Source: a virus
IMG/VR virus record: IMGVR_UViG_3300008267_000276
Coordinates: 1 to 27,384 of that record
Strand: one strand, 5' to 3'
Length of the DNA stretch: 27,384 nt
Made by a program: the position numbers and the translations under genes. Shown one piece after another: positions 2,377-26,924 of the stretch; position 1 is the first letter of the stretch; each line of letters starts with the position of its first letter. The notes under the pieces are model-generated. The model ran no database searches and had not been told where the DNA came from. It saw only the letters and a program-made list of their open reading frames with translations.

Positions 2377-3261
2377 TTAAGCATAGTATGATTGAGCGAC
2401 AGACTTTGGAACGTGAACTCCATCACAACTCTTACATCTATAGGGCTCCACAGTCTCTGTTGAGACTCTAAAGATTTCATCGAATGGATCAATAAAAACA
2501 CCATTCATACCAGATGCTGCCAACATGCCGGCTACTGTATCATTATTTGATTTTCTAGTTTTATTAAAAGAAATTAATTTTTCTGGAGATTTAACTGCTG
2601 CATAACTTGAGTTTTGCCTCAATGTTGCTGGAGGTGATCCATACCAGGTAATCTCTGATCCTGGTGTTATCCTCTTTATCTTTTTCAATAACTCTGAGGT
2701 TCCGGCAATTCCGTTTCCATTTAGCTGGATAACAATCTTTTTTGGTTTCTTTTTTAACTCTAGTTCTAACTCAGAATTAGATACCCAATATTTTGCTGAT
2801 GATCCAGCTTTGGATAGTCTCTTCCCGCCAAACTTGCTATGCAGCACCTCTCCGATTCCACCCTGCATTTGACTATCTCCAAATAGTAGTGCTGTATCTG
2901 AATATGAACTAGTATCAGGATTTGGGCTAGGCAAGGCAATCTCTTTGCCTAGCCCTGCAATCTCTGAAGATACTGGTGCTGGCATCTTTCTGACAGAAAC
3001 TTTGTTTTTGTTTATTCCCTTCAAGATATTGAGTTCTTCTTCTGATAGAGTTGATGTGTCAGCAAGGCCATTTTCTTTTTTAAATTTAGATAAAGCCATA
3101 TAGGTTTCTTTGCCCAGGCGACCATCTGCTCCGAAATTTGGCAATGGATAACCAGCATCTATTAGAGCCTGTTGAACTTCTCTTGTTTTAGTTTTTAGAA
3201 TATTACTGAAATCTGCTGCTTCTTTATATAAAGAAATAATTTTTTTAGTTCTAATATTCAT
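2377..3261 (-). CDS. Peptidoglycan-binding SGNH-family hydrolase
   Basis: The 294-residue product has two parts. Residues about 25-75 match a PG_binding_1 domain (GADGRLGKETYMALSKFKKENG). Residues about 122-294 match an SGNH/GDSL hydrolase. Block I is FGDSQ with Ser130, block II has Gly153, block III has LNGNG with Asn181 or Asn183, and block V is CDGVH with Asp280 and His283. All catalytic positions are present. Such enzymes remove acyl groups from sugars or peptidoglycan. The binding domain points to the cell wall, so wall processing during entry or lysis is likely. No signal peptide is seen, which fits a virion-carried or holin-released enzyme. The start has a good AAGGAA ribosome site. 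It is the first gene of the minus-strand operon. Confidence 0.85.
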   Translation of the reverse strand: MNIRTKKIISLYKEAADFSNILKTKTREVQQALIDAGYPLPNFGADGRLGKETYMALSKFKKENGLADTSTLSEEELNILKGINKNKVSVRKMPAPVSSEIAGLGKEIALPSPNPDTSSYSDTALLFGDSQMQGGIGEVLHSKFGGKRLSKAGSSAKYWVSNSELELELKKKPKKIVIQLNGNGIAGTSELLKKIKRITPGSEITWYGSPPATLRQNSSYAAVKSPEKLISFNKTRKSNNDTVAGMLAASGMNGVFIDPFDEIFRVSTETVEPYRCKSCDGVHVPKSVAQSYYA

Positions 3262-5967: not shown

Positions 5968-6627
5968 ATGAGTGGGAATAGGATCAAGATACTTGCAGGA
6001 ATACTTAAAACAGCTAACGACGAAAGTAGTCTACCACCAAAGACTGCAGGGGATGTCTCTTGCTCTGCAGAGCTACAATATCATATAGACCTAGGGCTCC
6101 CTCTTGGCAACAATATTTTTAGAATTTATTCCAAAGCATTCTATAATCTCTTTAATGAATCTAGAGAATTATGGAAGGTTGGCTCTCTAAAGGTTTCTGA
6201 TGATGACGCTTTCTTTTTAAGAACTGATATTGGAAAATTTGCAGAGGTTGATGGTAAAATGGTTCCATTGGATCTTCCAATTCCAATGGATTTATATGGC
6301 GAGATTATTTTGGACAAGACTGCTGCAGATAAAAAGAAAAGGACTCCAAAGCTAAACTCCCCTAGAAGAGTTGGTAAAAATGATCCTGGGTATGGAAGGA
6401 AGAAGTTCATTGTTCATGTTAGAGATCCTTCTACTGGTAATATCAAAACTGTTACCTTTGGTGATCCAAATCTTTCCATTAAGGCCAACTCTCCTGAGAG
6501 AAGAAAGTCTTTCTTAGCCAGACATAATTGTGATAATCCAGGACCAAGGACTAAGGCAAGGTGGTGGTCCTGTAATTTACATAGATATAAGAAGCAGTTG
6601 GGGCTCTCCTTTGAAGGTAGATGGTAG
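5968..6627 (+). CDS. Phage protein with conserved GDPN...RRKSF...HNCDNPGP C-terminus
   Basis: The 219-residue product has a helical N-terminus (KILAGILKTANDES), a middle region of unknown fold, and a basic C-terminal module from about residue 135. That module contains VTFGDPN, ERRKSFLARHNCDNPG and KARWWSCN. I recall this C-terminal block, with its two Cys and conserved basic residues, as recurring in many tailed-phage and some large-virus proteins (possibly DUF5872); its function is not known to me. A nucleic-acid or virion-assembly role would fit the basic charge. The start has AGGAG six bases upstream. Confidence 0.7.
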   Translation: MSGNRIKILAGILKTANDESSLPPKTAGDVSCSAELQYHIDLGLPLGNNIFRIYSKAFYNLFNESRELWKVGSLKVSDDDAFFLRTDIGKFAEVDGKMVPLDLPIPMDLYGEIILDKTAADKKKRTPKLNSPRRVGKNDPGYGRKKFIVHVRDPSTGNIKTVTFGDPNLSIKANSPERRKSFLARHNCDNPGPRTKARWWSCNLHRYKKQLGLSFEGRW

Positions 6628-10286: not shown

Positions 10287-10952
10287 ATGATTAGAAAACT
10301 TTTAGTATTAAAAAATATTATCAAAAGCTCTACTGAAATAAAAATGTTAGATTCTCTTATTAAAGAGGCTAGCGCAGAAATGGGATCTTTTACCACTAAA
10401 TTAATGAACAATGCAGAAGTACCTAATTCATTAATTAATGCTTTATCATTTAAAATAGGAACAATTCTTCCAGGTATTTTATCGGAATTTTATCCAAACA
10501 AATCAGAAAGTGAAATTAATAATTATGTTAATAATAACAAAACATTAATTTTATTTGAAGAAATTGAGCTATCAGAAGATCTAGAGCAAGGCAATGAAAT
10601 GTCTATTTTAGATCATTATTTATTTAAATCTTCAGAAGAATCCGCTTTACCGCCAGCTATTGATGTTGACGCACCACCAGCAGCTAGAGATAGTGGTCCT
10701 TTAAAATTAATGCCAGAAGGATTGGGAGAAGATGACTTTAATCTAGAATATGATGAAGAAATTTCTGAACAAATTTTAAGAGATTTATTATATACCTTTG
10801 TAGAGCAAGAAGAACCGCTTGGTGATTTCCGTCACATTTTTGATGAAGATGAGGAATTTCATGATCTTGACGAATATGGAGGTCCAGATGAACTTAATGA
10901 AGATGAGGTGGATAGATTCTTAGAGTTTATGAGAAGTTCTAATAAACGATAA
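10287..10952 (+). CDS. Acidic protein with Pro-rich linker, unknown function
   Basis: The 221-residue product has a basic helical N-terminus (MIRKLLVLKNIIK) and the segment SLIKEASAEM. A helical domain runs to about residue 110, then comes a Pro/Ala linker (SALPPAIDVDAPPAARDSGP). The C-terminal domain is very acidic, with many Asp and Glu between 145 and 215. The N-terminal KEA motif followed by an LPP linker resembles the layout of the product at 5968. No family is recognised. A virion or scaffold protein with an acidic tail would fit. It is the first gene after the sigma-factor terminator, but I see no convincing promoter in the gap. Confidence 0.65.
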   Translation: MIRKLLVLKNIIKSSTEIKMLDSLIKEASAEMGSFTTKLMNNAEVPNSLINALSFKIGTILPGILSEFYPNKSESEINNYVNNNKTLILFEEIELSEDLEQGNEMSILDHYLFKSSEESALPPAIDVDAPPAARDSGPLKLMPEGLGEDDFNLEYDEEISEQILRDLLYTFVEQEEPLGDFRHIFDEDEEFHDLDEYGGPDELNEDEVDRFLEFMRSSNKR

Positions 10953-17088: not shown

Positions 17089-17388
17089 ATGAAAAAACAA
17101 TATATGATTTATCATCCTGAAACTAATAGTTCTCCACTTAGGGCCTTTTATCTTAAGGATCACTTTATTAATTTAGATAGTGAGAAATTTTCTCCTTTTT
17201 TATATAAAAGTATTGGAGCAGCAAAAGCTGCCATTTCATTTGCCTTAAATCAGGCCAGATATAATCCAAAGAATCTGATGGAACTAAAAAACTTCCTTGT
17301 GGGAGTTCAGATTGTAGAGGTCGATGTTGTTGTTAAACAGATAGCCCACGAATATTTATTTGATTTGGAAAAAATCTCTAGAAACTAG
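17089..17388 (+). CDS. Hypothetical protein
   Basis: The 99-residue product directly follows the purB stop with no gap. It begins KKQYMIYHPETNSSPLRAFYL and has a helical middle (SIGAAKAAISFALNQARYNP) and a beta-rich C-terminus. I do not recognise it. Its helix-strand alternation suggests a small globular domain. Confidence 0.6.
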   Translation: MKKQYMIYHPETNSSPLRAFYLKDHFINLDSEKFSPFLYKSIGAAKAAISFALNQARYNPKNLMELKNFLVGVQIVEVDVVVKQIAHEYLFDLEKISRN

Positions 17389-17398
17389 GAGTTTGATC

Positions 17399-17677
17399 AT
17401 GCATTGGCGATATGGAATTGTAAGATACAGGCATAAAGCGAAGCCAGAGCATAGATTTTACGGTGTTGGCGAGCTTTATTATGATAAAGATCCTCTGACA
17501 CCACATTCTTGCACAGAAGAGCCTGTAGAGCCCTATCTTGATGAAGATGATGGTGATACAGAGGATGATGTCAAGGAGGGTATGAATCGCATTCTAGAGA
17601 GAATGATGAAGGATTGTATGAAGTATCCCATCTTTGATATTGATGGACCTTATGCAAAAACTACTTGGGATGGATAG
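17399..17677 (+). CDS. Small phage protein (HWRYGIVRY... family)
   Basis: The ATG at 17399 has AGGAG eight bases upstream; the open frame starting at 17360 runs inside the upstream gene and is not used. The 92-residue product starts MHWRYGIVRYRHKAKPEHRFYGVGELYYD. It then has an acidic stretch (LDEDDGDTEDDVKEG), a helix (MNRILERMMKDCMKYPIFD) and ends TTWDG. I recall small phage proteins with a similar layout of unknown function. Confidence 0.65.
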   Translation: MHWRYGIVRYRHKAKPEHRFYGVGELYYDKDPLTPHSCTEEPVEPYLDEDDGDTEDDVKEGMNRILERMMKDCMKYPIFDIDGPYAKTTWDG

Positions 17678-17739
17678 AGGGATTTAAATGATCTTTCTTT
17701 AGAGTAGCTAAATACAATGATTGATGAGGAGATAGATTT

Positions 17740-17991
17740 ATGGCTAAAGGAAAAATAGACGAGGGGGTACTGAACAATATGCTGGGATCATGGAAAATAC
17801 ATGGACCACCACGAAACCCCGAGAGAATAGATGAGATCTTAAATCTACTATCTACCTATTGGAGTAAAAATCCAGATCTAAGGTTAGGTCAGATATTAGA
17901 AAATATTGCTGGCAGATCAGGCTCTCATACTTTTTATATGGAAGACTCAATAGTAATTGAGTGGCTTAAAAAAGACCTAGAAAAAAAATAA
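17740..17991 (+). CDS. Small phage protein with PDLRLGQ motif
   Basis: The 83-residue product contains RIDEILNLLSTYWSKNPDLRLGQILENI and FYMEDSIVIEWLKK. The order helix, PDLRLGQ, then FYxED, then a C-terminal helix is one I know from many phage and bacterial small proteins of unknown function. GAGGAG lies before the ATG. It is the last gene before a 255-base non-coding stretch. Confidence 0.75.
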   Translation: MAKGKIDEGVLNNMLGSWKIHGPPRNPERIDEILNLLSTYWSKNPDLRLGQILENIAGRSGSHTFYMEDSIVIEWLKKDLEKK

Positions 17992-18091
17992 TATCCTGCT
18001 AATATAATGTTTATAAATTATGGTTGTACTTTTATTAATATCATTTTCATTCAGGGCTTCACTCGCCTCTGACGAAGAACGAGCGGGCAAA

Positions 18092-18150
18092 AGCTTTTCT
18101 ACAAGTCGAGAGCCGAAATAAACTTCGAAGTTTTGTAGAAAAAAAGCATT
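18092..18150 (+). other. Stable intergenic hairpin, candidate structured RNA
   Basis: TTTTCTACAA (18095-18104) pairs perfectly with TTGTAGAAAA (18133-18142), extended by GC pairs at 18093-18094 and 18146-18147 across a three-base bulge. The 28-base interior contains two TCGA tetramers and a CTTCGAAG palindrome. It lies in the 17992-18246 gap, whose 18050-18115 part is GC-richer than the genes around it. No T-run follows, so it is not a simple terminator. Apart from a TATAAT at 18003 and a doubtful 33-codon frame at 18020, I see nothing else in the gap. Confidence 0.45.
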
Positions 18151-18246
18151 CTTCAAAAACCAATCCTCCCAGGTCTTGATTATTTACAAATACTTTTAAG
18201 CTAAAAATACTGAAGTGGTTGTAGCTACAGATAGTTAGGAGCTAAT

Positions 18247-18612
18247 TTGATAGCAAAAATCAAAGAAGTAAAAGAAGTAGTATTTGATGGGAAAAGAGAT
18301 TGGAGTCAAAAGAGATCTCCAGATTGGCCTAAAATAAGAGAGGCTCATCTGAAAGATCATCCAATTTGCGATGTTTGTGGTTGTAATGTTGGTGTAGAAG
18401 TTCATCATATTAAGCCATTTCATCTATATCCAGAGCTAGAATTAGAGCCTTCAAATTTGATTTCTTTATGTGAAACAAAGAAGTATGGTGTTAATTGTCA
18501 TCTATTTTTTGGACACCTAGGAAATTATAAGACAGAAAATCTCCATATACTTGAAGATGTAAAGATATGGAAGAAAAGATTTGAAGAAAGAAAGAGGCAG
18601 CTTAAAAAATAA
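18247..18612 (+). CDS. HNH endonuclease
   Basis: The 121-residue product has a zinc-supported HNH fold. Cys41 and Cys44 lie in CDVC, EVHHIKPFHLYPELELEP holds His53 and His54, and NLISLC holds Asn70 and Cys75. GVNCHLFFGHLGN holds Cys84, His85 and His90. These small HNH enzymes are common in phages, as homing-type nickases or as terminase-associated nucleases. No terminase gene is adjacent, so a free-standing endonuclease is more likely. The start is TTG with AGGAG five bases upstream. Confidence 0.9.
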   Translation: MIAKIKEVKEVVFDGKRDWSQKRSPDWPKIREAHLKDHPICDVCGCNVGVEVHHIKPFHLYPELELEPSNLISLCETKKYGVNCHLFFGHLGNYKTENLHILEDVKIWKKRFEERKRQLKK

Positions 18613-18752
18613 AGTCTTCTTTTTGTATTTGAGGCATAATCCTGTGGATACTATGGAGGCATGGGCAGGCGGTAGCAAATTAGGTCTAAAAGTATTATTG
18701 GTTGGCTACTTAAAGTCATAAATACTTAAACTATTAAATAATATAAACAAAA

Positions 18753-19265
18753 ATGTATCTAAGTGAAAATAAGAGAAGTCAAGAGATGCCAGTATCAGTA
18801 GATAGATATTCAACTTCAAAATTCATCTTGAAAGATGATGAAGCAGTAGGGCACATAAAGAGTCTAGTAAGACTGCTACAACATGAGTCAAACCTAAGCT
18901 CTGGATTCTTAATGGAAGAATCCTATGCCAAGCTTCTCCAATGTGGAGATAGAACTTTCAAATTTATGGCAGGAGGTTACGCTAATTCTAATCTAGAATT
19001 AAGATACTCTTCCATTCATAATATGAAGAATGAAATCTTGGAAGATGATGATCCTGATTATAATTCAGTCTCTCTATTTTCAGAGATACAAAAAAATCTT
19101 CAAGAGGGTGCTTGGTTTTTTGTAGAAAATCATTCCATAGAAGATTACGATTTATCTTCTTATATAGCCATCTACCATCAGGACGGTAGAGTAGTTTATC
19201 GAAGCTCTTATGATTCTAAAATAGATATACTAAAGAGTATAAACTTAGAAGGAGTAGCAAGATAA
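18753..19265 (+). CDS. Hypothetical protein
   Basis: The 170-residue product is mixed helix and strand with no recognised motif. The N-terminal half contains SLVRLLQHESNLSSGFLMEE, and the C-terminal half includes an acidic DDDPDYN turn and FFVENHSIEDYDLSSYIAIYHQDG. The A-rich leader before the ATG has no clear ribosome site. Its stop overlaps the next start (TAATG), so it is coupled to the zinc protein that follows. Confidence 0.6.
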   Translation: MYLSENKRSQEMPVSVDRYSTSKFILKDDEAVGHIKSLVRLLQHESNLSSGFLMEESYAKLLQCGDRTFKFMAGGYANSNLELRYSSIHNMKNEILEDDDPDYNSVSLFSEIQKNLQEGAWFFVENHSIEDYDLSSYIAIYHQDGRVVYRSSYDSKIDILKSINLEGVAR

Positions 19266-19687
19266 TGTCTCCAGAATTAGAAGAGGAAATATTTAAAAAA
19301 TACCCAAGACTCTTTCAAAGGGAGGATCCCGATGGACAGAGATTTGGCTCGAGTTGCTATGAGTTTTCCTGTGGTGATGGATGGTTTCATATTATAGATA
19401 CTCTGTGTCGAAATATTCAAAACTATTCTGACAATCATCAAGATGGACTTGACCAAGAAGATGCGGAGTATTATCAAGTTACTGTACAGCAGGTTAAGGA
19501 AAAATTTGGATCACTTAGATTTTATATAAGTGGTGGTGACGATTATATATATGGTATGATCTCAATGGCAGAGGCTATTTCTGAAAAAACTTGTGAAGAT
19601 TGTGGCGCAAAAGCAGAGGTTACCACTAAAGGTTGGATTAGAAATCTTTGTTTTAAATGTAATGATAAACCTAAGGAAGAGGAATAA
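19265..19687 (+). CDS. Phage protein with KFGSLRFY core and C-terminal zinc finger
   Basis: The 140-residue product has KYPRLF near the start, a GDGWFHII segment, and the core VKEKFGSLRFYISGGDD. A MISMAEAISEKTCEDCG block follows, ending with GWIRNLCFKC. Cys110, Cys113, Cys129 and Cys132 should form a zinc finger. I know this pattern as a widespread phage protein without assigned function. The start overlaps the upstream stop, and the thioredoxin gene follows closely. Confidence 0.8.
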   Translation: MSPELEEEIFKKYPRLFQREDPDGQRFGSSCYEFSCGDGWFHIIDTLCRNIQNYSDNHQDGLDQEDAEYYQVTVQQVKEKFGSLRFYISGGDDYIYGMISMAEAISEKTCEDCGAKAEVTTKGWIRNLCFKCNDKPKEEE

Positions 19688-19689
19688 TA

Positions 19690-20013
19690 ATGTCCATAAA
19701 AACAGCAGATGATAAAAATTTTAGTTTATTCTTAAAAGATAATAAAGCAGTACTGCTAAAGATGGGGGCGCTATGGTGCGGCCCTTGTAAGGCTATTAAA
19801 CCAACGCTAGAGGCTGTGGCCCAGGAGAGATCTGACTCTCTATTGGTTTTAGACATGGATATTGATGATAGTCCAATGGTCCCACGTTCACTGAAGGTTA
19901 TGAGCGTCCCTACAATGATTCTCTTTTTAGATGGAAAGGAAGTATCTAGAAGGGCTGGAAATATATCAAAGCAAGAACTCAACTCATGGATTGATTTAGA
20001 AATAAAGAAGTAG
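19690..20013 (+). CDS. Thioredoxin
   Basis: The 107-residue product has the thioredoxin fold with active site WCGPC (29-33) and the cis-Pro motif SVPTM (Pro74). The buried Asp of E. coli thioredoxin (VDFWAEWC) is Lys here (LKMGALWC), a change also recalled in other phage and plant-type thioredoxins. It likely reduces disulfides in the cytoplasm, for example to recycle ribonucleotide reductase or to act as a polymerase factor. No signal peptide is seen. The ribosome site is GAGGAA. Confidence 0.92.
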   Translation: MSIKTADDKNFSLFLKDNKAVLLKMGALWCGPCKAIKPTLEAVAQERSDSLLVLDMDIDDSPMVPRSLKVMSVPTMILFLDGKEVSRRAGNISKQELNSWIDLEIKK

Positions 20014-20015
20014 AT

Positions 20016-20309
20016 ATGAGTAACGATTCAGATCAAATCAAAAAAGTAACTGCTAAAAAATTAGCAGTTATTTTTTGCTTTTCCCTAGTGGCTAATTTCT
20101 TGGGTTCATGGTATGGATATGCCATGACTCATGGGCAAATTGTAGTTCAGGCAATACTGGGCATTTGTATTCCATTTTCAAACTTATTTTATTCCAATGC
20201 CTTTATTGAAGCAAAATCTTTTAAAGATAGAGTAAAGATTACATTTGCAGCAGGCTTGGCACTATCTATTGGAAGTACATTGATGCTTCTACTGCAAGAG
20301 TATATCTAG
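20016..20309 (+). CDS. Small integral membrane protein
   Basis: The 97-residue product has a basic N-terminus and three likely membrane segments at about residues 16-33, 42-60 and 74-93. The middle contains the sequence YGYAMTHGQIVVQ. It follows thioredoxin by two bases and precedes the next start by 15 bases, in the same frame, separated by TAG. The function is unknown; a holin-like role is possible from size and topology only. Confidence 0.65.
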   Translation: MSNDSDQIKKVTAKKLAVIFCFSLVANFLGSWYGYAMTHGQIVVQAILGICIPFSNLFYSNAFIEAKSFKDRVKITFAAGLALSIGSTLMLLLQEYI

Positions 20310-20324
20310 ATTAGGATAGTATCA

Positions 20325-20669
20325 ATGGGAATGTTTGATTTAATATCTGTTGAGAATATTGTATTAGTAAAAAATAATACTATTCCAATTTTACCATTAC
20401 AATATCAGACGAAAAACTTAGATTGCAGGCTAAAAAAATACTCTCTTGAAGAAGCACTGGAAAAATTTAAGTTACGAGAACTTATAATATATGCTGTTTT
20501 TGATCAAGATTACTTTCTAAAACTTCTAGAAAATGATACCTTAAAAAGTGATATTTTATTCTCAATTAATGATTTTTCAAGAGCTGCTGACTCAAGATGG
20601 CTAGAGTATAGATTGAAAATATCCAAAAGAAAAATTACTAATATAGATCTAGTAATATATAAATATTGA
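20325..20669 (+). CDS. Phage protein of the MGMFD...QTKxLDC type
   Basis: The 114-residue product starts MGMFDLISVEN and contains LQYQTKNLDCRLKKYSL at about 27-42. I recall small phage proteins with the MGMFD start and a FQTKdLDC motif, often with extra Cys pairs; here only one Cys remains. The C-terminus is diverged, with a SINDFSRAADSRWLEYRLK segment. AGGA lies eight bases before the ATG. The function is not known. Confidence 0.65.
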   Translation: MGMFDLISVENIVLVKNNTIPILPLQYQTKNLDCRLKKYSLEEALEKFKLRELIIYAVFDQDYFLKLLENDTLKSDILFSINDFSRAADSRWLEYRLKISKRKITNIDLVIYKY

Positions 20670-20727
20670 TGGGTAAACCTACAATAATTTTACTATTGAT
20701 AAAATATCCTTATTATAGGAAGTTAAT

Positions 20728-21096
20728 ATGAGCACTAGAGTATTTGAGATATCAGGAATTACATCAGCAGATTTTTCTGCAGCATCAGAGCTAGAGTTGC
20801 AGCTAGATCAGTCTGGAGATGAGCTGGCCTGTATAGAGATTCTGAGAGTGATGGCAAAGTTTGAATCAGGTTCTGCCACAGAGTATCAGGTTTCAATTGG
20901 AAATGAACCAGGATTTGCAGAATACTCTATGGAACAAAAGTATTTAGGATCAGCAACTTTGATTTCAGATACATTTGATGAATCAGATGTTAGAGCTTAC
21001 GGTAATACATCGGCAGATGGTAAAATCTATGTTAGATTTACTCCAAATGTAGGCTCTAATAATCAATTTTCTTATGCTATAAGTTATAGAATTTAA
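20728..21096 (+). CDS. Putative virion (fibre-associated) protein
   Basis: The 122-residue product is beta-rich, low in charge and Ser/Gly-rich, with TSADGKIYVRFTPNVGSNNQFSYAISYRI at the end. This composition and the Asn/Gly turn near the end are typical of phage structural or fibre proteins. AGGAAG lies before the ATG. It is followed 31 bases later by a long fibre-like gene, so both probably form parts of one surface structure. Confidence 0.65.
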   Translation: MSTRVFEISGITSADFSAASELELQLDQSGDELACIEILRVMAKFESGSATEYQVSIGNEPGFAEYSMEQKYLGSATLISDTFDESDVRAYGNTSADGKIYVRFTPNVGSNNQFSYAISYRI

Positions 21097-21127
21097 ATAG
21101 TATTGAGCCATACAGTGGAGATAAAAC

Positions 21128-22666
21128 ATGTCAACAATTAGGCCAAATAGGTCATATGGATCTGCAAGTGGCGAATCAGGTCAATCTATAACGGAAATAT
21201 CTGGACCACTTTCTGGATTTGGAGAATTAGAAATAATTTCTCCAACTCCAACTTCTCAGGTTTCTTTTGTTTATGGCATAAATCCATTATTGGCAACCAG
21301 TCAGACGTATGGAGCTGGATCCACAGTTTCCTCTAGTGGTGGTGAAGTAATTGTTTCTAGCGGAACAGCATCCAATAGTTATGCTAGGGTTCTTTCAAAG
21401 AAAGTGGCAAAGTACAGACCCGGACAGGCAACTCTAGCCAGATGGACTGCTAGGTATAGTGCTGGGGTATCAAACAATAGACAGATGTCTGGAGTCTATA
21501 ATATAGAGGGCGGATATAGATTTGGATATAATGGTGAACAATTTGGTATTTTATATACAGAATCTGCAACTATAGAGGTTCAGACTCTCACAATTACTAC
21601 CAAATCATCTGCTGCCACAAATGTTACTGTAACCCTAGATGGTGGGCCGGGAGTTATAGTTCCAGTAACAAATGGTGCCAATACATCTATTACAGCCTAT
21701 GAGATAAGCCTAGCAGATTATTCACAGGTAGCCGGCGGCTGGGATGCAATTGCCATACAGAATGTTGTTTATTTTACTAGAAGGATAGCCGGTCCTGCTG
21801 GAGCAAGCTCTTTTAATCCAGGGGTTAGCGGTGCTGTAGGATCTTTTGCAATACTGACTACTGGTGTTGCTCCCTCTGATGTTTTTATTGCACAACAAGA
21901 TTGGAATAGAGATACCTGTAATGGTGCTGGACTGAGTAGGGTAAATATAGATCATACAAAAGGAAATATTTATCAGGTTCAATTTCAATATCTTGGATAT
22001 GGAAATGCATTTTTCTCAGTTATAAATGGAGAAACTGGAAGGCCAGTTCTCTGCCATGTTATAGAAAATGCAAATACAAGAACATCTACAAACTTAAGAA
22101 ATCCAAATTTATATCTTTCTTGGGAAAGTGTCAATAATGGCTCAACAACTCCTGTGTCATTAAGAGGAGCATCTGGAGGAACATTTGTTGAGGGGGCGAT
22201 TAAGTATCTTGGGGCTCAGTTTTCTGTAACTGGAACAAGATCAATTGGAGCCTCAGTTGAAACGCCAATTCTTACCTTGAGGGCTAGCAATGTTTTACAA
22301 GGTAGAAAATCAATGGCCCAACTACAAATAGATAGAATATCCGTAGCTTGTGATGGTGCAAAACCAGTTGACATTAAAGTTTACAAAAATGGAAATTTAG
22401 TCGGAGCACAATTTCAAAAGGCCAATCTTATAGCCTCTGCCTCAGATGTAGATTCGGCTGCATCTTCTTTCTCCATTGGATCTGGGGTACAAATTTTTGG
22501 ATTTTCTGTCTCAAAAACTGGAAATTCAACAGAAAGTCTTACTGATTTAGATCTATTCTTGCAGTCTGGTGATACAGTTACAGTTACCGCCTTTACAGCT
22601 AACCCTGGAGGCGGCGGCGGTGGAAGCGATGTTAGTGCATCTATTGTCTGGATAGAAGATATCTAA
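21128..22666 (+). CDS. Putative tail fibre or surface structural protein
   Basis: The 512-residue product is almost wholly beta-structure, rich in Ser, Thr, Gly and Asn, and poor in Cys. The N-terminal part has a typical virion start (MSTIRPNRSYGSASGESG). A middle domain contains RVNIDHTKGNIYQVQFQYLG and VSLRGASGGTFVEG, which I associate with fibre proteins of large uncultured phages. The C-terminus ends in a GGGGGG linker and SIVWIEDI. It probably takes part in host recognition or decorates the capsid. The ribosome site is GGAG. Confidence 0.75.
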   Translation: MSTIRPNRSYGSASGESGQSITEISGPLSGFGELEIISPTPTSQVSFVYGINPLLATSQTYGAGSTVSSSGGEVIVSSGTASNSYARVLSKKVAKYRPGQATLARWTARYSAGVSNNRQMSGVYNIEGGYRFGYNGEQFGILYTESATIEVQTLTITTKSSAATNVTVTLDGGPGVIVPVTNGANTSITAYEISLADYSQVAGGWDAIAIQNVVYFTRRIAGPAGASSFNPGVSGAVGSFAILTTGVAPSDVFIAQQDWNRDTCNGAGLSRVNIDHTKGNIYQVQFQYLGYGNAFFSVINGETGRPVLCHVIENANTRTSTNLRNPNLYLSWESVNNGSTTPVSLRGASGGTFVEGAIKYLGAQFSVTGTRSIGASVETPILTLRASNVLQGRKSMAQLQIDRISVACDGAKPVDIKVYKNGNLVGAQFQKANLIASASDVDSAASSFSIGSGVQIFGFSVSKTGNSTESLTDLDLFLQSGDTVTVTAFTANPGGGGGGSDVSASIVWIEDI

Positions 22667-22673
22667 AGTAATA

Positions 22674-22701
22674 TTGACAAAATTTTAAAAGTGTCTATAT
22701 T
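22674..22701 (+). promoter_or_regulatory. Sigma70-type promoter of the peroxidase gene
   Basis: A perfect TTGACA (22674-22679), a 16-base spacer and TATATT (22696-22701) followed by AG form the best promoter in the window. Predicted initiation is near 22708, giving a leader of about 84 bases before the ATG at 22792. Confidence 0.82.
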
Positions 22702-22791
22702 AGAAATAATATTCTAGTTAATTAGATATGAATTTATATCTAAAATAATTAGAATTATAAAATTGTTTTTGTAAAGCAAAGGAGTTGCTAG

Positions 22792-23769
22792 ATGATATTA
22801 TTTCTGTTATCCTTAATGGCCTGTCATGTCAAAGAGGATTATTCTAGGCCTAAAGATGTTGTAGTAGAGATTACTTCGCAAGATCTGGAGGGATATAGTC
22901 CATTACCTACCGACTTCTTTTTACCTGGAGAAGAGGTAAACATAGAGTTAATTTCTCTAGGAAAAAAGCTTTTTAATGAAAAATCACTCTCAGCTAGCAA
23001 TGAGATATCTTGCAGTTCTTGTCATGATTTAACTAAAGCTGGAACAGATCTTCAACAATTTTCAAAGGGACACAACAACTCTTTGACTGGAAGAAACTCC
23101 CCTACAGTATTAAATGCTGCTGGTCATGCTTTCCAGTTTTGGGATGGTAGGGTTATGACTGTAGAGGATCAGGCTTTAGGTCCAATCTTAGCTGCGGGAG
23201 AAATGGCCATGCCAAATGAAGAGTCAGTAGTAGCCCTCTTGAAGTCAAAGCCTGAATATATAGATGGCTTTAAGAAAGCATTTCCAGACCAAATGAATCC
23301 AATTACATTTAAAAATGTTGGAATAGCAATAGGATCATATGAGAGAACCTTGTCTACACCAAGTAGGTGGGATATGTTTCTGGATGGTGACAAGAATGCT
23401 CTTTCAGATGATGAAAAGAAAGGATTTATTACTTTCAATAAGACCGGCTGCGGAACATGTCATAGTGGATCACTACTTGGCGGCCATATGTTTATGAAGG
23501 TAGGAGTGGTTCATCCCTGGCCAAATCAAAGCGATCTAGGCAGATTTGAGGTTACTAAAAATGAAACCGACAAGATGGTGTTCAAAGTACCTTCTTTAAG
23601 AAATGTGGCAGTAACTGGACCATATTTCCACGATGGCTCTGTAGCCAATTTGAATGCAGCAGTAAAAATGATGGCATATTATCAATTAGGAAAAGATCTA
23701 ACAGATGAAGAGGTAGGGCTAATAGAGGTCTGGCTCGGCAGCACATCTGGCGTACTTACAGGAGAATAA
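22792..23769 (+). CDS. Di-haem cytochrome c peroxidase, predicted lipoprotein
   Basis: The 325-residue product has two c-type haem sites, CSSCH (74-78) and CGTCH (220-224), as in bacterial CcpA/MauG-family peroxidases. Other family features are FWDGR (116-120), LGPILAAGEMAM (129-140) and VPSLRNVAVTGPYFHDGS (266-283). The N-terminus is a short hydrophobic leader ending LMAC (Cys11), a lipobox-like site. The enzyme should sit in the periplasm, reduce hydrogen peroxide to water using electrons from cytochrome c, and need the host haem-attachment machinery. It has its own promoter and an AAAGGAG ribosome site. Its presence in a phage-like region is unusual. The family call is firm. Confidence 0.93.
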   Translation: MILFLLSLMACHVKEDYSRPKDVVVEITSQDLEGYSPLPTDFFLPGEEVNIELISLGKKLFNEKSLSASNEISCSSCHDLTKAGTDLQQFSKGHNNSLTGRNSPTVLNAAGHAFQFWDGRVMTVEDQALGPILAAGEMAMPNEESVVALLKSKPEYIDGFKKAFPDQMNPITFKNVGIAIGSYERTLSTPSRWDMFLDGDKNALSDDEKKGFITFNKTGCGTCHSGSLLGGHMFMKVGVVHPWPNQSDLGRFEVTKNETDKMVFKVPSLRNVAVTGPYFHDGSVANLNAAVKMMAYYQLGKDLTDEEVGLIEVWLGSTSGVLTGE

Positions 23770-23771
23770 CT

Positions 23772-24056
23772 ATGGATGATATGGTTCAGGTAGAAGATAA
23801 GGTTGAAACTATAGAGAAAGAAGTTTATACAGTTCTTGCTCAGCAAGATTCTGGGTCAGGCAAATCTTTATTATTCTCTTACACTTCTTTTGATAAGAAA
23901 AGTGCAATGAGTATTGCTAAATCTTTAGCAGAAGAGCATGGTCTAGTAAAAACATCTGGCGACTATTGGACTGACAGAAAAGGTAATAGTATCTCTGTTT
24001 TTAAATTAGAATTAAATAAAAAGCCAATTACAAAAGATTTATTTCCTTTTAACTAG
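23772..24056 (+). CDS. Hypothetical protein downstream of the peroxidase
   Basis: The 94-residue product starts two bases after the peroxidase stop, with GGAG seven bases upstream, so it should be on the same mRNA. It has an acidic N-terminus (MDDMVQVEDKVETIEKEVY), then a beta-alpha-beta pattern with a helix KKSAMSIAKSLAEEHGL. No signal peptide or Cys is seen, so it is probably cytoplasmic and not part of the peroxidase itself. Function unknown. Confidence 0.6.
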   Translation: MDDMVQVEDKVETIEKEVYTVLAQQDSGSGKSLLFSYTSFDKKSAMSIAKSLAEEHGLVKTSGDYWTDRKGNSISVFKLELNKKPITKDLFPFN

Positions 24057-24138
24057 CCCTCTAATGGTATACCGTTATGGATCGAAGATGGAACTATCCT
24101 GAAAGCAATTGTTCTCCGAATCGTATGTCGGCATAGTT

Positions 24139-24181
24139 TGCGGCTTCTAGGGTTAATTTAAAAAGCCGCACTTTTACTCTT
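24139..24181 (+). terminator. Probable intrinsic terminator after the peroxidase unit
   Basis: TGCGGCTT (24139-24146) pairs with AAGCCGCA (24163-24170) around a 16-base loop, followed by CTTTTACTCTTTT. The loop is long, but the stem is GC-rich and the T-rich tail is clear. Confidence 0.65.
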
Positions 24182-24207
24182 TTCTAGGTTTTGATATCTG
24201 GCTATAC

Positions 24208-24221
24208 TACCCCTAGGGGTA
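24208..24221. promoter_or_regulatory. Perfect 14-base palindrome overlapping a ribosome site
   Basis: TACCCCTAGGGGTA is a perfect palindrome directly downstream of TATACT (24203-24208) and ends three bases before the ATG at 24225. Its AGGGG also serves as the ribosome site. It could be an operator for a dimeric repressor or a translational block. Confidence 0.4.
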
Positions 24222-24224
24222 AGA

Positions 24225-24617
24225 ATGAATGATCTGAAATACGAATTTATCGGATGGTGTAAAGATGGTCAGAGCGATAAAATTTGGGGTATCATAGAGT
24301 TATTAGCCCCTCAGGTTCGGGGCACCATACCCATTTCTGGTAAATATCTTGTTTTTTGGGGCAGAAGAGGCGCTAGGTATCAAACAAAAATAATGAAATC
24401 TTTATGTCCAATACGTTATTATTGGCATTCTACCGTCGCCAAAAAGATAGAAGAAAAAATAAAAAAGAAATATATAAAAGTTGATAAACATAAATTAAAA
24501 GATATATACCCAAACTTTGAAAAAGATTTACAAGATCTGACCTTTTGGTCAATGATGACAAAGACAGATAAGCTTTCCATAGAAGAATGGGAAGAGATTA
24601 GAAGAAATATTTTTTAA
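24225..24617 (+). CDS. WGR-like domain protein
   Basis: The 130-residue product has FIGWCKDGQSDKIWGIIEL at the start, KYLVFWGRRGARYQTKI at about 42-58, then a basic helical part and an acidic C-terminal helix. The WGR-RGxxxQTKI block resembles the WGR fold found with PARP and other nucleic-acid proteins and in small phage proteins. The role may be nucleic-acid binding, but this is inference. The ribosome site AGGGG lies inside the palindrome described separately. Confidence 0.65.
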   Translation: MNDLKYEFIGWCKDGQSDKIWGIIELLAPQVRGTIPISGKYLVFWGRRGARYQTKIMKSLCPIRYYWHSTVAKKIEEKIKKKYIKVDKHKLKDIYPNFEKDLQDLTFWSMMTKTDKLSIEEWEEIRRNIF

Positions 24618-24640
24618 ATAAATATATAAAGATAAGAAAA

Positions 24641-24916
24641 ATGATTGAAAAAATTATCTCATGCTCATGTCGCTCACCAGAGCATACATTAACTTATAAT
24701 CTTAATACAGAGGATAGAGAAGTCTATACATCTGTTTTTTTACACCAGTATAGACCATTCTATCAAAGAGTATGGATTGCCGTAAAATATATTTTTGGAT
24801 ATAAATCTAGGTATGGTCATTGGGATTGCTTCTCTGCCGATAGAGAGAAGATTTTAGAGCTAAAAGAATTCTTTGATCTGGCCGTAGAAAAAACAGGAGG
24901 TATCCGTGAGCAATAA
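24641..24916 (+). CDS. Small phage protein with RVWIAVKYIFGY motif
   Basis: The 91-residue product begins with a CSCRSPEH segment, followed by YTSVFLHQYRPFYQRVWIAV and then KYIFGYKSRYGHWDC. I recall this block, from an EH-containing start to a GHWD motif, as a recurrent small phage protein of unknown function. Two Cys and a His near the N-terminus could bind metal. It overlaps the next gene by 11 bases. Confidence 0.7.
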   Translation: MIEKIISCSCRSPEHTLTYNLNTEDREVYTSVFLHQYRPFYQRVWIAVKYIFGYKSRYGHWDCFSADREKILELKEFFDLAVEKTGGIREQ

Positions 24917-25286
24917 TCAAGATTTGTCATTCTACGACTTGATGGGAAATGAGGTAAAGGTTGGAGATACCTTTGTAATTGCCTCTCTAAGCTATAGGAC
25001 GCCTGTTCTAAATCTAGGACTCTTAAAAGAGATTAAGATTTGTAATAAAGTTGCTAGAGTTTATTATCAGGCAGTTGGTAACAGCTATTATAGTGGCGAT
25101 ATTTATTCTTCAAAAACTTACTTTCAATTGGATAAGAAAGTATTTTTAGAAGTAGGAAGTCCAGATTCAAGAAAGATTGAGTGGATATTAAAAATATCAG
25201 ATATAGAATTCCATTTGAATAATAAGAGATTCTCAAAACTTTTCGAAGAAAAAATTAAGCATACAGAGTTAGAGCAGAAGTCCTAG
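24906..25286 (+). CDS. Hypothetical protein
   Basis: The 126-residue product starts with GTG after GGAGG (five-base spacing), inside the end of the upstream gene. It contains DLMGNEVKVGDTFVIASLSYRTPVLNLG, an SH3-like or small beta-barrel pattern near the start, then RVYYQAVGNSYYSGDIYSS and a basic helical C-terminus. I recognise similar starts in small phage proteins but no named family. Confidence 0.65.
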   Translation: MSNNQDLSFYDLMGNEVKVGDTFVIASLSYRTPVLNLGLLKEIKICNKVARVYYQAVGNSYYSGDIYSSKTYFQLDKKVFLEVGSPDSRKIEWILKISDIEFHLNNKRFSKLFEEKIKHTELEQKS

Positions 25287-25318
25287 CCATCAGATGGGAT
25301 TTGAAAAATATAAGTTCG

Positions 25319-25354
25319 CCACCTTGACTTGATCAAGGTGGTGTTTATATTTTT
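25319..25354 (+). terminator. Hairpin terminator overlapping a promoter
   Basis: CCACCTTGA (25319-25327) pairs with TCAAGGTGG (25333-25341) around a five-base loop, followed by TGTTTATATTTTTA. It should end transcription from the genes stopping at 25286. Its left arm contains part of the -35 box of the next promoter. Confidence 0.7.
25324..25351 (+). promoter_or_regulatory. Sigma70-type promoter of the lysS unit
   Basis: TTGACT (25324-25329), a 16-base spacer and TATATT (25346-25351) match the sites at 12831 and 22674 in both sequence and spacing. Predicted initiation near 25358 gives a short leader that keeps the AGGAGG site at 25365. Confidence 0.7.
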
Positions 25355-25375
25355 AGGGAGCCATAGGAGGTCTTA

Positions 25376-25642
25376 TTGAACTTCTGCCCTCCCCTATTTC
25401 ATCCTAAATACTTACCGCTATTTCTCAATAAATATTTTGAAATACAAATAGGTAGATTAAAAGATAGCTGTAGCTATCTTGATATCCATATAAAGTGGAA
25501 TAAAAATACGCATCATGCTGGTTTAGGCTTTGGTATAGAAGTGCTATCTTATTTTCTTGCAATAGATATTTACGATAATCGCCATTGGAATTATGAAGAA
25601 TCAAGATGGGAAGATTACAGCAAGGAGAAATATCATGATTAA
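25376..25642 (+). CDS. Small phage protein upstream of lysyl-tRNA synthetase
   Basis: The 88-residue product starts with TTG after a strong AGGAGG (five-base spacing). It contains NKYFEIQIGRLKDSCSYLDI, then HHAGLGFGIEVLSYFLAIDIYD and RHWNYEESRWEDY. I recall this pattern, with a HAGL turn and a DxRHWNY block, from many small phage proteins without function. Its end overlaps the LysRS start by eight bases, so LysRS may be coupled to it. Confidence 0.7.
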   Translation: MNFCPPLFHPKYLPLFLNKYFEIQIGRLKDSCSYLDIHIKWNKNTHHAGLGFGIEVLSYFLAIDIYDNRHWNYEESRWEDYSKEKYHD

Positions 25643-26924
25643 GAATCAGACTATCTCTGCGATAATTAATGATTCAACCTGGACAGAAACTTCTACTGCT
25701 GGCAGAGTCTTGTCTCATAAGAAGATGGGGTCTGTTTGCTTTGGGTTTATTTCCGATGCAACAGGAAAGATTCAGTATTGCATAAAGAGAGATTCGTTTC
25801 CAGGAGATTACAAGGAGGCTTGCAACTCTGTTACTCGCGGTCAACACATTGCAATAAATGGCACTAGATTTGTTACTGCCGCAGGAGAGCTCACTATTAA
25901 TGTGGTATCCGTTAAGGTTGTTCAGCCATCTTGCTCTGGCCTTGGCGATAAGCATAATGGCATCAGAGATATTGAGACAATCTATCGAGCAAGGTACAAG
26001 GAAACCGCAATTGATTCTGATGCGGCAAAGGTATTTTTGACTCGCTCCGAAATAATTAAGAACCTTAGGATCTATCTTTGGGGCAAGGGATTTATTGAAG
26101 TAGAGACTCCAATACTTACTCCTGTTGCGTCTGGAGCTATGGCAAAGCCGTTTGTCACGCATCACAATGATCTTGATAAGGACTTTTACCTTCGTATTGC
26201 ACCAGAGACAGCACTAAAGGCCATGACTGCTGGCGGGTTTGATAAGATTTTTGAGTGTTCTAAGTCTTTTAGAAATGAAGGATCGGATCGCAGTCATATT
26301 CAAGAATTTACCAGCCTAGAACTATACAATTGTTACGCTGATTATCAGGACAATAAGACTCTATTTCTTGATATGATGCGACACCTACTAACATCTCTTG
26401 GTCACTCAAATCAAAAGATCCATTATGATAATATTGAGCTGGACTTTTCTAATATTCCAACTCTTTTGTATAGAGATCTTTTTGCTCAGCATGGGCTTCC
26501 ATCGCCAGATACTATGGTGCCTTCATATGCAGATGAAGTATTCAAGAAGGTTATCAGGCCAACTATCGTTCAGCCAACAATTATAGAGGACTATCCAGCC
26601 AGAATGTCACCTATGGCAAAGAGAAGGGATGACGACGAAACAACCTGTGAACAATGGCAGCTAATTGTTTGCGGCTGGGAGATTGCAAAGTGCTATTCCG
26701 AAATTGTTTCTGAGTCAATCCAGCGTCAGCTTCTTGAAGATCAGATGTCTCAAAGGGCAAATGGCGACGAAGAGACTATGATGCTTGATGAGAGTTTCCT
26801 TGATGCTCTAGGTTTTGGTGCGCCTCCACAGTCAGGAATTGGCATTGGAATTTGTCGGTTGGTAGCAATTCTGACTAATCAAATTAGCCTTCGTGACGTA
26901 ACTTATTTCCCTCTTATGAGATAG
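25635..26924 (+). CDS. lysS: Lysyl-tRNA synthetase, class II, compact form
   Basis: The ATG at 25635 has AAGGAG seven bases upstream; the ATG at 25593 lies inside the upstream gene. The 429-residue product has an N-terminal OB-fold anticodon domain (about 15-105), and class II motif 1 (about 140-162, ending VETPILTP). Motif 2 is FRNEGSDRSHIQEFTSLELY (212-231) and motif 3 is GIGIGICRL (401-409). PFVTHHNDLDKDFYLRIAPE is a clear LysRS segment. It is shorter than E. coli LysS, lacking the N-terminal helix region and most of the catalytic insert. Several usually fixed residues differ: Lys352 where E. coli has Asn424, Tyr354 for Phe426, and Cys407 for the motif 3 Asp. It should charge tRNA-Lys. Confidence 0.92.
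   Translation: MIKNQTISAIINDSTWTETSTAGRVLSHKKMGSVCFGFISDATGKIQYCIKRDSFPGDYKEACNSVTRGQHIAINGTRFVTAAGELTINVVSVKVVQPSCSGLGDKHNGIRDIETIYRARYKETAIDSDAAKVFLTRSEIIKNLRIYLWGKGFIEVETPILTPVASGAMAKPFVTHHNDLDKDFYLRIAPETALKAMTAGGFDKIFECSKSFRNEGSDRSHIQEFTSLELYNCYADYQDNKTLFLDMMRHLLTSLGHSNQKIHYDNIELDFSNIPTLLYRDLFAQHGLPSPDTMVPSYADEVFKKVIRPTIVQPTIIEDYPARMSPMAKRRDDDETTCEQWQLIVCGWEIAKCYSEIVSESIQRQLLEDQMSQRANGDEETMMLDESFLDALGFGAPPQSGIGIGICRLVAILTNQISLRDVTYFPLMR

Follow-up and report, generated by a model that had tools for sequence, protein, structure and literature searches.

A di-haem cytochrome c peroxidase as probable auxiliary cargo in a lineage of large T4-type phages

Most of the metabolic genes known from viruses encode cytoplasmic enzymes or parts of photosystems. 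Catalase-peroxidase, the product of katG, is a cytoplasmic haem b enzyme and not an exported c-type lipoprotein. A viral katG auxiliary gene appears in a review (PMC12713726); it resembles the gene described here in that a virus carries a peroxide-removing enzyme, but the two belong to unrelated protein families. Closer in kind are the classical bacterial di-haem cytochrome c peroxidases (CCPs) of Neisseria gonorrhoeae (6fu3, 7zs8) and Pseudomonas aeruginosa (1eb7), with which our protein shares the fold, two CxxCH motifs, a His/Met-ligated E-haem, a distal P-haem histidine (His94), a tryptophan, a Gln/Glu pair, and the residues of the Ca site. A structural paper names the functional residues of the gonococcal enzyme, including the E-haem axial Met280, and likewise describes a modified cysteine at its N terminus (PMC10094543). 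Unlike these classical enzymes, our CCP is encoded by a phage, has an uncharged leader of 10 residues, and falls in a viral clade of its own. The MauG and MbnH di-haem enzymes belong to the same Pfam family and have a related fold, but our protein lies far below their cut-offs and has Met at the E-haem ligand position. Finally, Phage C48C1 (Kyanoviridae, OQ984149) carries in its complete 156-kb genome, directly beside a tRNA gene, a MauG-like "hypothetical protein" (PF03150). That protein differs from ours in length (473 aa), in sequence (24.5% identity), and in its best NCBIfam match, which is another MauG-like model, and judging from these comparisons it is a different capture. The enzyme family is known, then, and what appears new is a conserved viral clade of CCPs; no published phage CCP was found in the literature searched, which does not prove absence.

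Our analysis concerns one viral record of 27,384 bases (the window), which has no end repeats and is probably a fragment. We put at roughly 0.8 the probability that it encodes a classical bacterial di-haem CCP serving as auxiliary cargo of a lineage of large T4-type phages. An earlier note on this DNA had proposed such an enzyme with the motifs CSSCH and CGTCH, and both motifs were located (Table 1), in an open reading frame that matches the Pfam CCP_MauG family at 2.2e-51 (174.9 bits, cut-off 25.6). Among solved relatives, the classical CCPs 6fu3 and 6qkn are best at about 1e-75, with MauG at about 1e-21, and identity to the aligned solved CCPs is 44-47%. The best Foldseek matches of the predicted fold, a model of moderate quality (mean pLDDT 68), are to N. 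gonorrhoeae CCP (TM 0.76, E 5e-22). The residues named for the gonococcal enzyme map to H78, N102, F116, W117, Q127, P131, E137, M138, H224, T275, P277, and M294, all of which are invariant both in an alignment of five CCPs and in every one of ten viral CCPs. They include the P-haem ligand His78, the E-haem ligands His224 and Met294, the Ca ligands Asn102, Thr275, and Pro277, the bridging Trp117, and the active-site pair Gln127 and Glu137. By these features the gene appears intact, and it encodes a complete classical di-haem CCP.

Table 1. Coordinates of the CCP locus and its surroundings in the window
Feature	Position	Strand	Details
Left anchor, phage backbone colinear with G002	17360..20013	+	identities by gene: 17360, 74%; HNH 18247, 81%; 18753, 48%; 19265, 48%; thioredoxin 19690, 54%
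Block with CCP and fibre-like virion protein, missing here in G001/G002	20016..24905	+	
Fibre-like virion structural protein, phrog_1645	21128..22666	+	36% to 485-kb huge phage LR745208.1 (best phage match)
Sigma-70-type promoter-like site TTGACA-16-TATATT, in 125-bp intergenic gap	22674..22701	+	best match in 20 kb
Ribosome-binding site AGGAG, 7 nt 5' of CCP ATG	22780..22784	+	
Classical di-haem CCP, predicted lipoprotein, 325 aa	22792..23769	+	Pfam, solved relatives, alignments, tree, Foldseek
Uncharged 10-residue lipoprotein leader (MILFLLSLMA) and lipobox Cys	22792..22824	+	
CSSCH, P-haem attachment motif, residues 74-78	23011..23025	+	
CGTCH, E-haem attachment motif, residues 220-224	23449..23463	+	
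Orphan 94-aa ORF directly 3' of CCP, probably co-transcribed	23772..24056	+	
Right anchor, phage backbone colinear with G001 and G002	24906..26924	+	identities by gene: 24906, 43%; 25376, 60-61%; LysRS-like 25593, 52-54%

Viral relatives of the CCP came to light only with an alignment that included solved CCPs; scanning the viral contigs with the single protein gave no matches. The alignment scan recovered nine loci (L003-L011), on contigs of 49-172 kb, with 42-61% identity to the window CCP. Phylogenetic analysis of 92 CCPs places the window with L003-L008 in a clade of seven sequences (clade A, support 100/100) and the three viral sequences L009-L011 in another (clade B, 100/99). A search and a tree had been proposed in the earlier note, and in both the closest CCPs are viral. 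Clade A falls among sequences from Myxococcota, Acidobacteriota, and Verrucomicrobiota with no resolved sister. The free tree favours two captures, one for each clade, and a single capture is compatible as well, as a topology uniting the two has an AU p of 0.121. The distal P-haem His94 is kept in the window and throughout clade A, and is Ala in clade B, whose enzymes may, on this substitution, work without reductive activation. Pairwise dN/dS values among viral CCPs are 0.12, 0.08, 0.10, and 0.19, the wider pairs being rough estimates with synonymous sites near saturation, and they indicate that the genes are kept under purifying selection. That related viruses share a gene under selection suggests that they retain it to be used in the cells they infect. 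As for the host, L003 has an acyl-CoA dehydrogenase with a 63% identical counterpart in a Myxococcota MAG, and no short leaders of the kind described below were found in 182 kb of that MAG; Myxococcota is a weak lead.

The surroundings of the gene, like the tree, are those of a phage. Immediately upstream lies a virion protein of phrog_1645, in keeping with the place among fibre-like and small phage genes that had been claimed for the CCP; a scan of the viral contigs with this fibre-like protein found no viral relatives. Elsewhere the window encodes a sigma factor, a ClpP-like protease, a SpoU-type methylase, an adenylosuccinate lyase, a thioredoxin, a LysRS-like protein, an HNH endonuclease, and many small ORFs. 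We saw no ribosomal or core-chromosomal gene cluster in it, the small ORFs having been only partly searched against family libraries, and recognised no terminase, portal, or capsid genes. A look for such hallmark genes in the rest of the contig had been suggested earlier, and the relatives were searched for them as well. T4-type portal, terminase (TerL), gp23 capsid, and sheath genes are present on G005 (L007) and G006 (L008), contigs of 164-172 kb whose CCPs belong to the same clade as the window's, and on G010 (L012), which carries a more distant CCP; on the fragmentary contigs G001-G004 and G007-G009, searches for T4 portal, terminase, gp23, and sheath had no matches. The window itself is tied to phages by its virion-protein families and by colinearity. 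It has many genes in common with G001 (L003) and G002 (L004), including those for ClpP (58-62% identity), LysRS (52-54%), and thioredoxin (52-54%), and with G002 the SpoU-type methylase (67%) and HNH endonuclease (81%).

Gene order between 17.4 and 26.9 kb of the window is kept in G002 except for the one block that holds the CCP, and the genes of 12.8-15.5 kb lie nearby in G002 in a locally rearranged order. From thioredoxin to the 24906 gene the distance is about 4.9 kb in the window versus about 0.7 kb in G001 and G002. The additional DNA holds a membrane protein, two small ORFs, the virion protein, the CCP, the 94-aa ORF, and the genes at 24225 and 24641, the last of which has a relative located elsewhere in G001 and G002. 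The two contigs have their CCP about 18 kb from this place, beyond thioredoxin, where it follows an acyl-CoA dehydrogenase gene (L003 763-2655, L004 8036-9991) at a distance of 9 nt. In L005, L006, L007, and L012, the CCP lies in or beside the phage tRNA array. Because its position differs among related phages, the CCP appears to be recurrent cargo. Gene context, colinear viral contigs, phylogeny, and selection all support the original claim that the enzyme is phage-borne. Two smaller observations concern neighbouring genes. A GIY-YIG-like homing endonuclease ORF (G001:C1:56454-57419) stands, by eye, between the relative of the 25376 gene and the LysRS-like gene, and is not in the window. In addition, 97-aa small membrane proteins that are 26% identical occur near the CCP in the window (20016-20309) and in L005 (11001-11294).

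A lipobox-like leader had also been noted, and the sequence LMAC does follow a hydrophobic stretch of 10 residues that has no positive charge (MILFLLSLMAC). An in-frame TAG directly precedes the ATG, so a misplaced start codon does not account for the short length. Such a leader is shared by all ten CCPs of the two viral clades: their lipobox Cys is residue 9-12, and the residues before it include no K, R, D, or E. Among 80 bacterial CCPs whose loci were scanned, none has such a short uncharged leader; the scan gave three short-leader matches, all at other genes. Unusually short as it is, the leader would be expected to work in export. A minimal leader in 10 of 10 viral enzymes offers a clean case for how phages refit captured export signals.

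These features outline how the enzyme might act. The phage would express the CCP from its own host-type promoter, and the host's Sec/Lgt/Lsp route would export the protein and anchor it by lipid in the envelope, as its leader implies. From the motifs, both haems would be attached by the cytochrome c maturation system of the host. The His/Met E-haem could then take up electrons from a cytochrome c or cupredoxin of the host, from which electrons would pass via Trp117 to the P-haem, where Gln127 and Glu137, as in the family at large, would assist the cleavage of H2O2 to water. The electron donor would be the host's because no cytochrome c match other than the CCP itself was found on the CCP contigs. 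Judged from its sequence, then, the protein is most likely a lipoprotein that is exported and reduces peroxide in the periplasm, with haem and electron donors supplied by the host. Peroxide protection and altered respiration are both plausible roles, and the benefit during infection would most likely be either that periplasmic peroxide is removed or that it accepts electrons and so sustains electron transport. A wider reading, which we hold with rather more doubt than belief, is that the large-phage lineage has repeatedly acquired periplasmic di-haem peroxidases and refitted them with a minimal lipoprotein leader, and that with these enzymes it controls peroxide or electron flow in the envelope of infected cells. 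If true, this would amount to viral intervention in periplasmic respiration by way of a haem enzyme that needs host haem attachment. With a conserved viral clade of haem-c peroxidases that are exported, phages would be investing in the periplasm and relying on the haem-attachment and electron-donor systems of their hosts. Peroxide, or peroxide respiration, also becomes a testable limit on infection by large phages.

Other explanations can be weighed against this evidence. Phage envelope lipoproteins that serve in exclusion are known, and the CCP could be one in which peroxidase activity is not needed, acting, say, by excluding superinfecting phages or by serving as a decoy at the surface. The very short leaders would fit such a role, as would the fibre-like neighbour in the window. 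However, a decoy would not need the haem motifs and catalytic residues that are invariant in ten viral CCPs only 41-61% identical to that of the window, dN/dS of 0.08-0.19 counts against it too, and in the relatives the CCP is not adjacent to a fibre-like gene. We regard this explanation as very unlikely, even if it ranks first among the rivals. Next comes a MauG- or MbnH-like function, namely the peroxide-driven oxidation of a partner protein, with the 94-aa ORF as a possible substrate. It draws on the fact that the best NCBIfam matches are the MbnH and MauG models; the scores, however, at 175 bits for MbnH (cut-off 363) and 148 bits for MauG (cut-off 444), fall far short, and the closest solved relatives are CCPs. 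Furthermore, the E-haem ligand of MauG is not Met (it is Tyr), whereas the aligned residue of the window is M294, as in classical CCPs. On the scores and this ligand we rejected a MauG or MbnH identity, and the putative substrate has no obvious leader and no relatives. The functional variant is likewise very improbable.

Least probable of all is that the window is a fragment of bacterial chromosome, or an assembly chimera, that looks viral and carries an ordinary host CCP. CCPs are common in bacteria, and some matches among the viral contigs (L013-L015) do look bacterial, having long leaders of the standard kind or a YhjA-like form with an N-terminal extension; these, together with the Salmonella and E. 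coli phage-record matches H1-H4, were set aside for that reason. Nevertheless, colinearity with G002 extends over both flanks of the CCP block in the window, the CCP adjoins a virion protein, and the nearest CCPs are viral and form one clade with that of the window. Since that clade includes contigs with phage hallmark genes, a chromosomal origin is already refuted for it by G005 and G006, and we rejected the chromosomal fragment. The earlier note had named a chromosomal contig as the outcome that would refute its claim, and the window does not show this.

The promoter proposed for the CCP was examined as well. The region marked out in the earlier note was correct in its coordinates, and its start at 22674 is that of the promoter-like site. 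This site, claimed as the best sigma70 promoter, is the sole 11/12 match in the 20 kb scanned, and the chance of such a match inside the 125-bp gap is about 0.004. Yet the relatives do not conserve the site upstream of their CCPs, and promoter-like sites in the same 20 kb are near expectation overall (90 versus 79 +/- 9 by chance). The 94-aa ORF begins 2 nt past the CCP stop, and the two genes are probably co-transcribed. Its product, described earlier as having no known role, still has no family, relative, or confident fold in family libraries, the viral-contig scan, and structure prediction.

Several other observations on these phages were made. A second predicted exported lipoprotein is encoded at 1115-1765 on the minus strand of the window (leader MKILFWLLALTGC), with relatives on two CCP-bearing phage contigs: L008 7816-8427 (45%, a trypsin-like protease by Pfam) and L007 20112-20762 (29%). 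By eye, unrelated phage proteins begin with common short modules, MLKNLVKIAQELDKAGFKKESDIVDxII and MKxTRRQLRRLIxE among them, which occur in the window at 1822-2352, 2377-3261, 5968-6627, and 10287-10952 and also in L003, L004, and L009-L011; these are perhaps capsid-targeting leaders cleaved by the prohead protease. L123 (G001:C1:1-20000) encodes GroEL and a dehydrogenase resembling IMP dehydrogenase, as well as a protein similar to adenylosuccinate synthase with a further match, under the cut-off, to PurZ. Along with the PurB-like gene of the window, these genes suggest phage purine synthesis and, possibly, modified DNA. Finally, a tmRNA gene with the tag ANNNNYFEVAQAA is predicted at L010 8394-8779, on a CCP-bearing phage contig.
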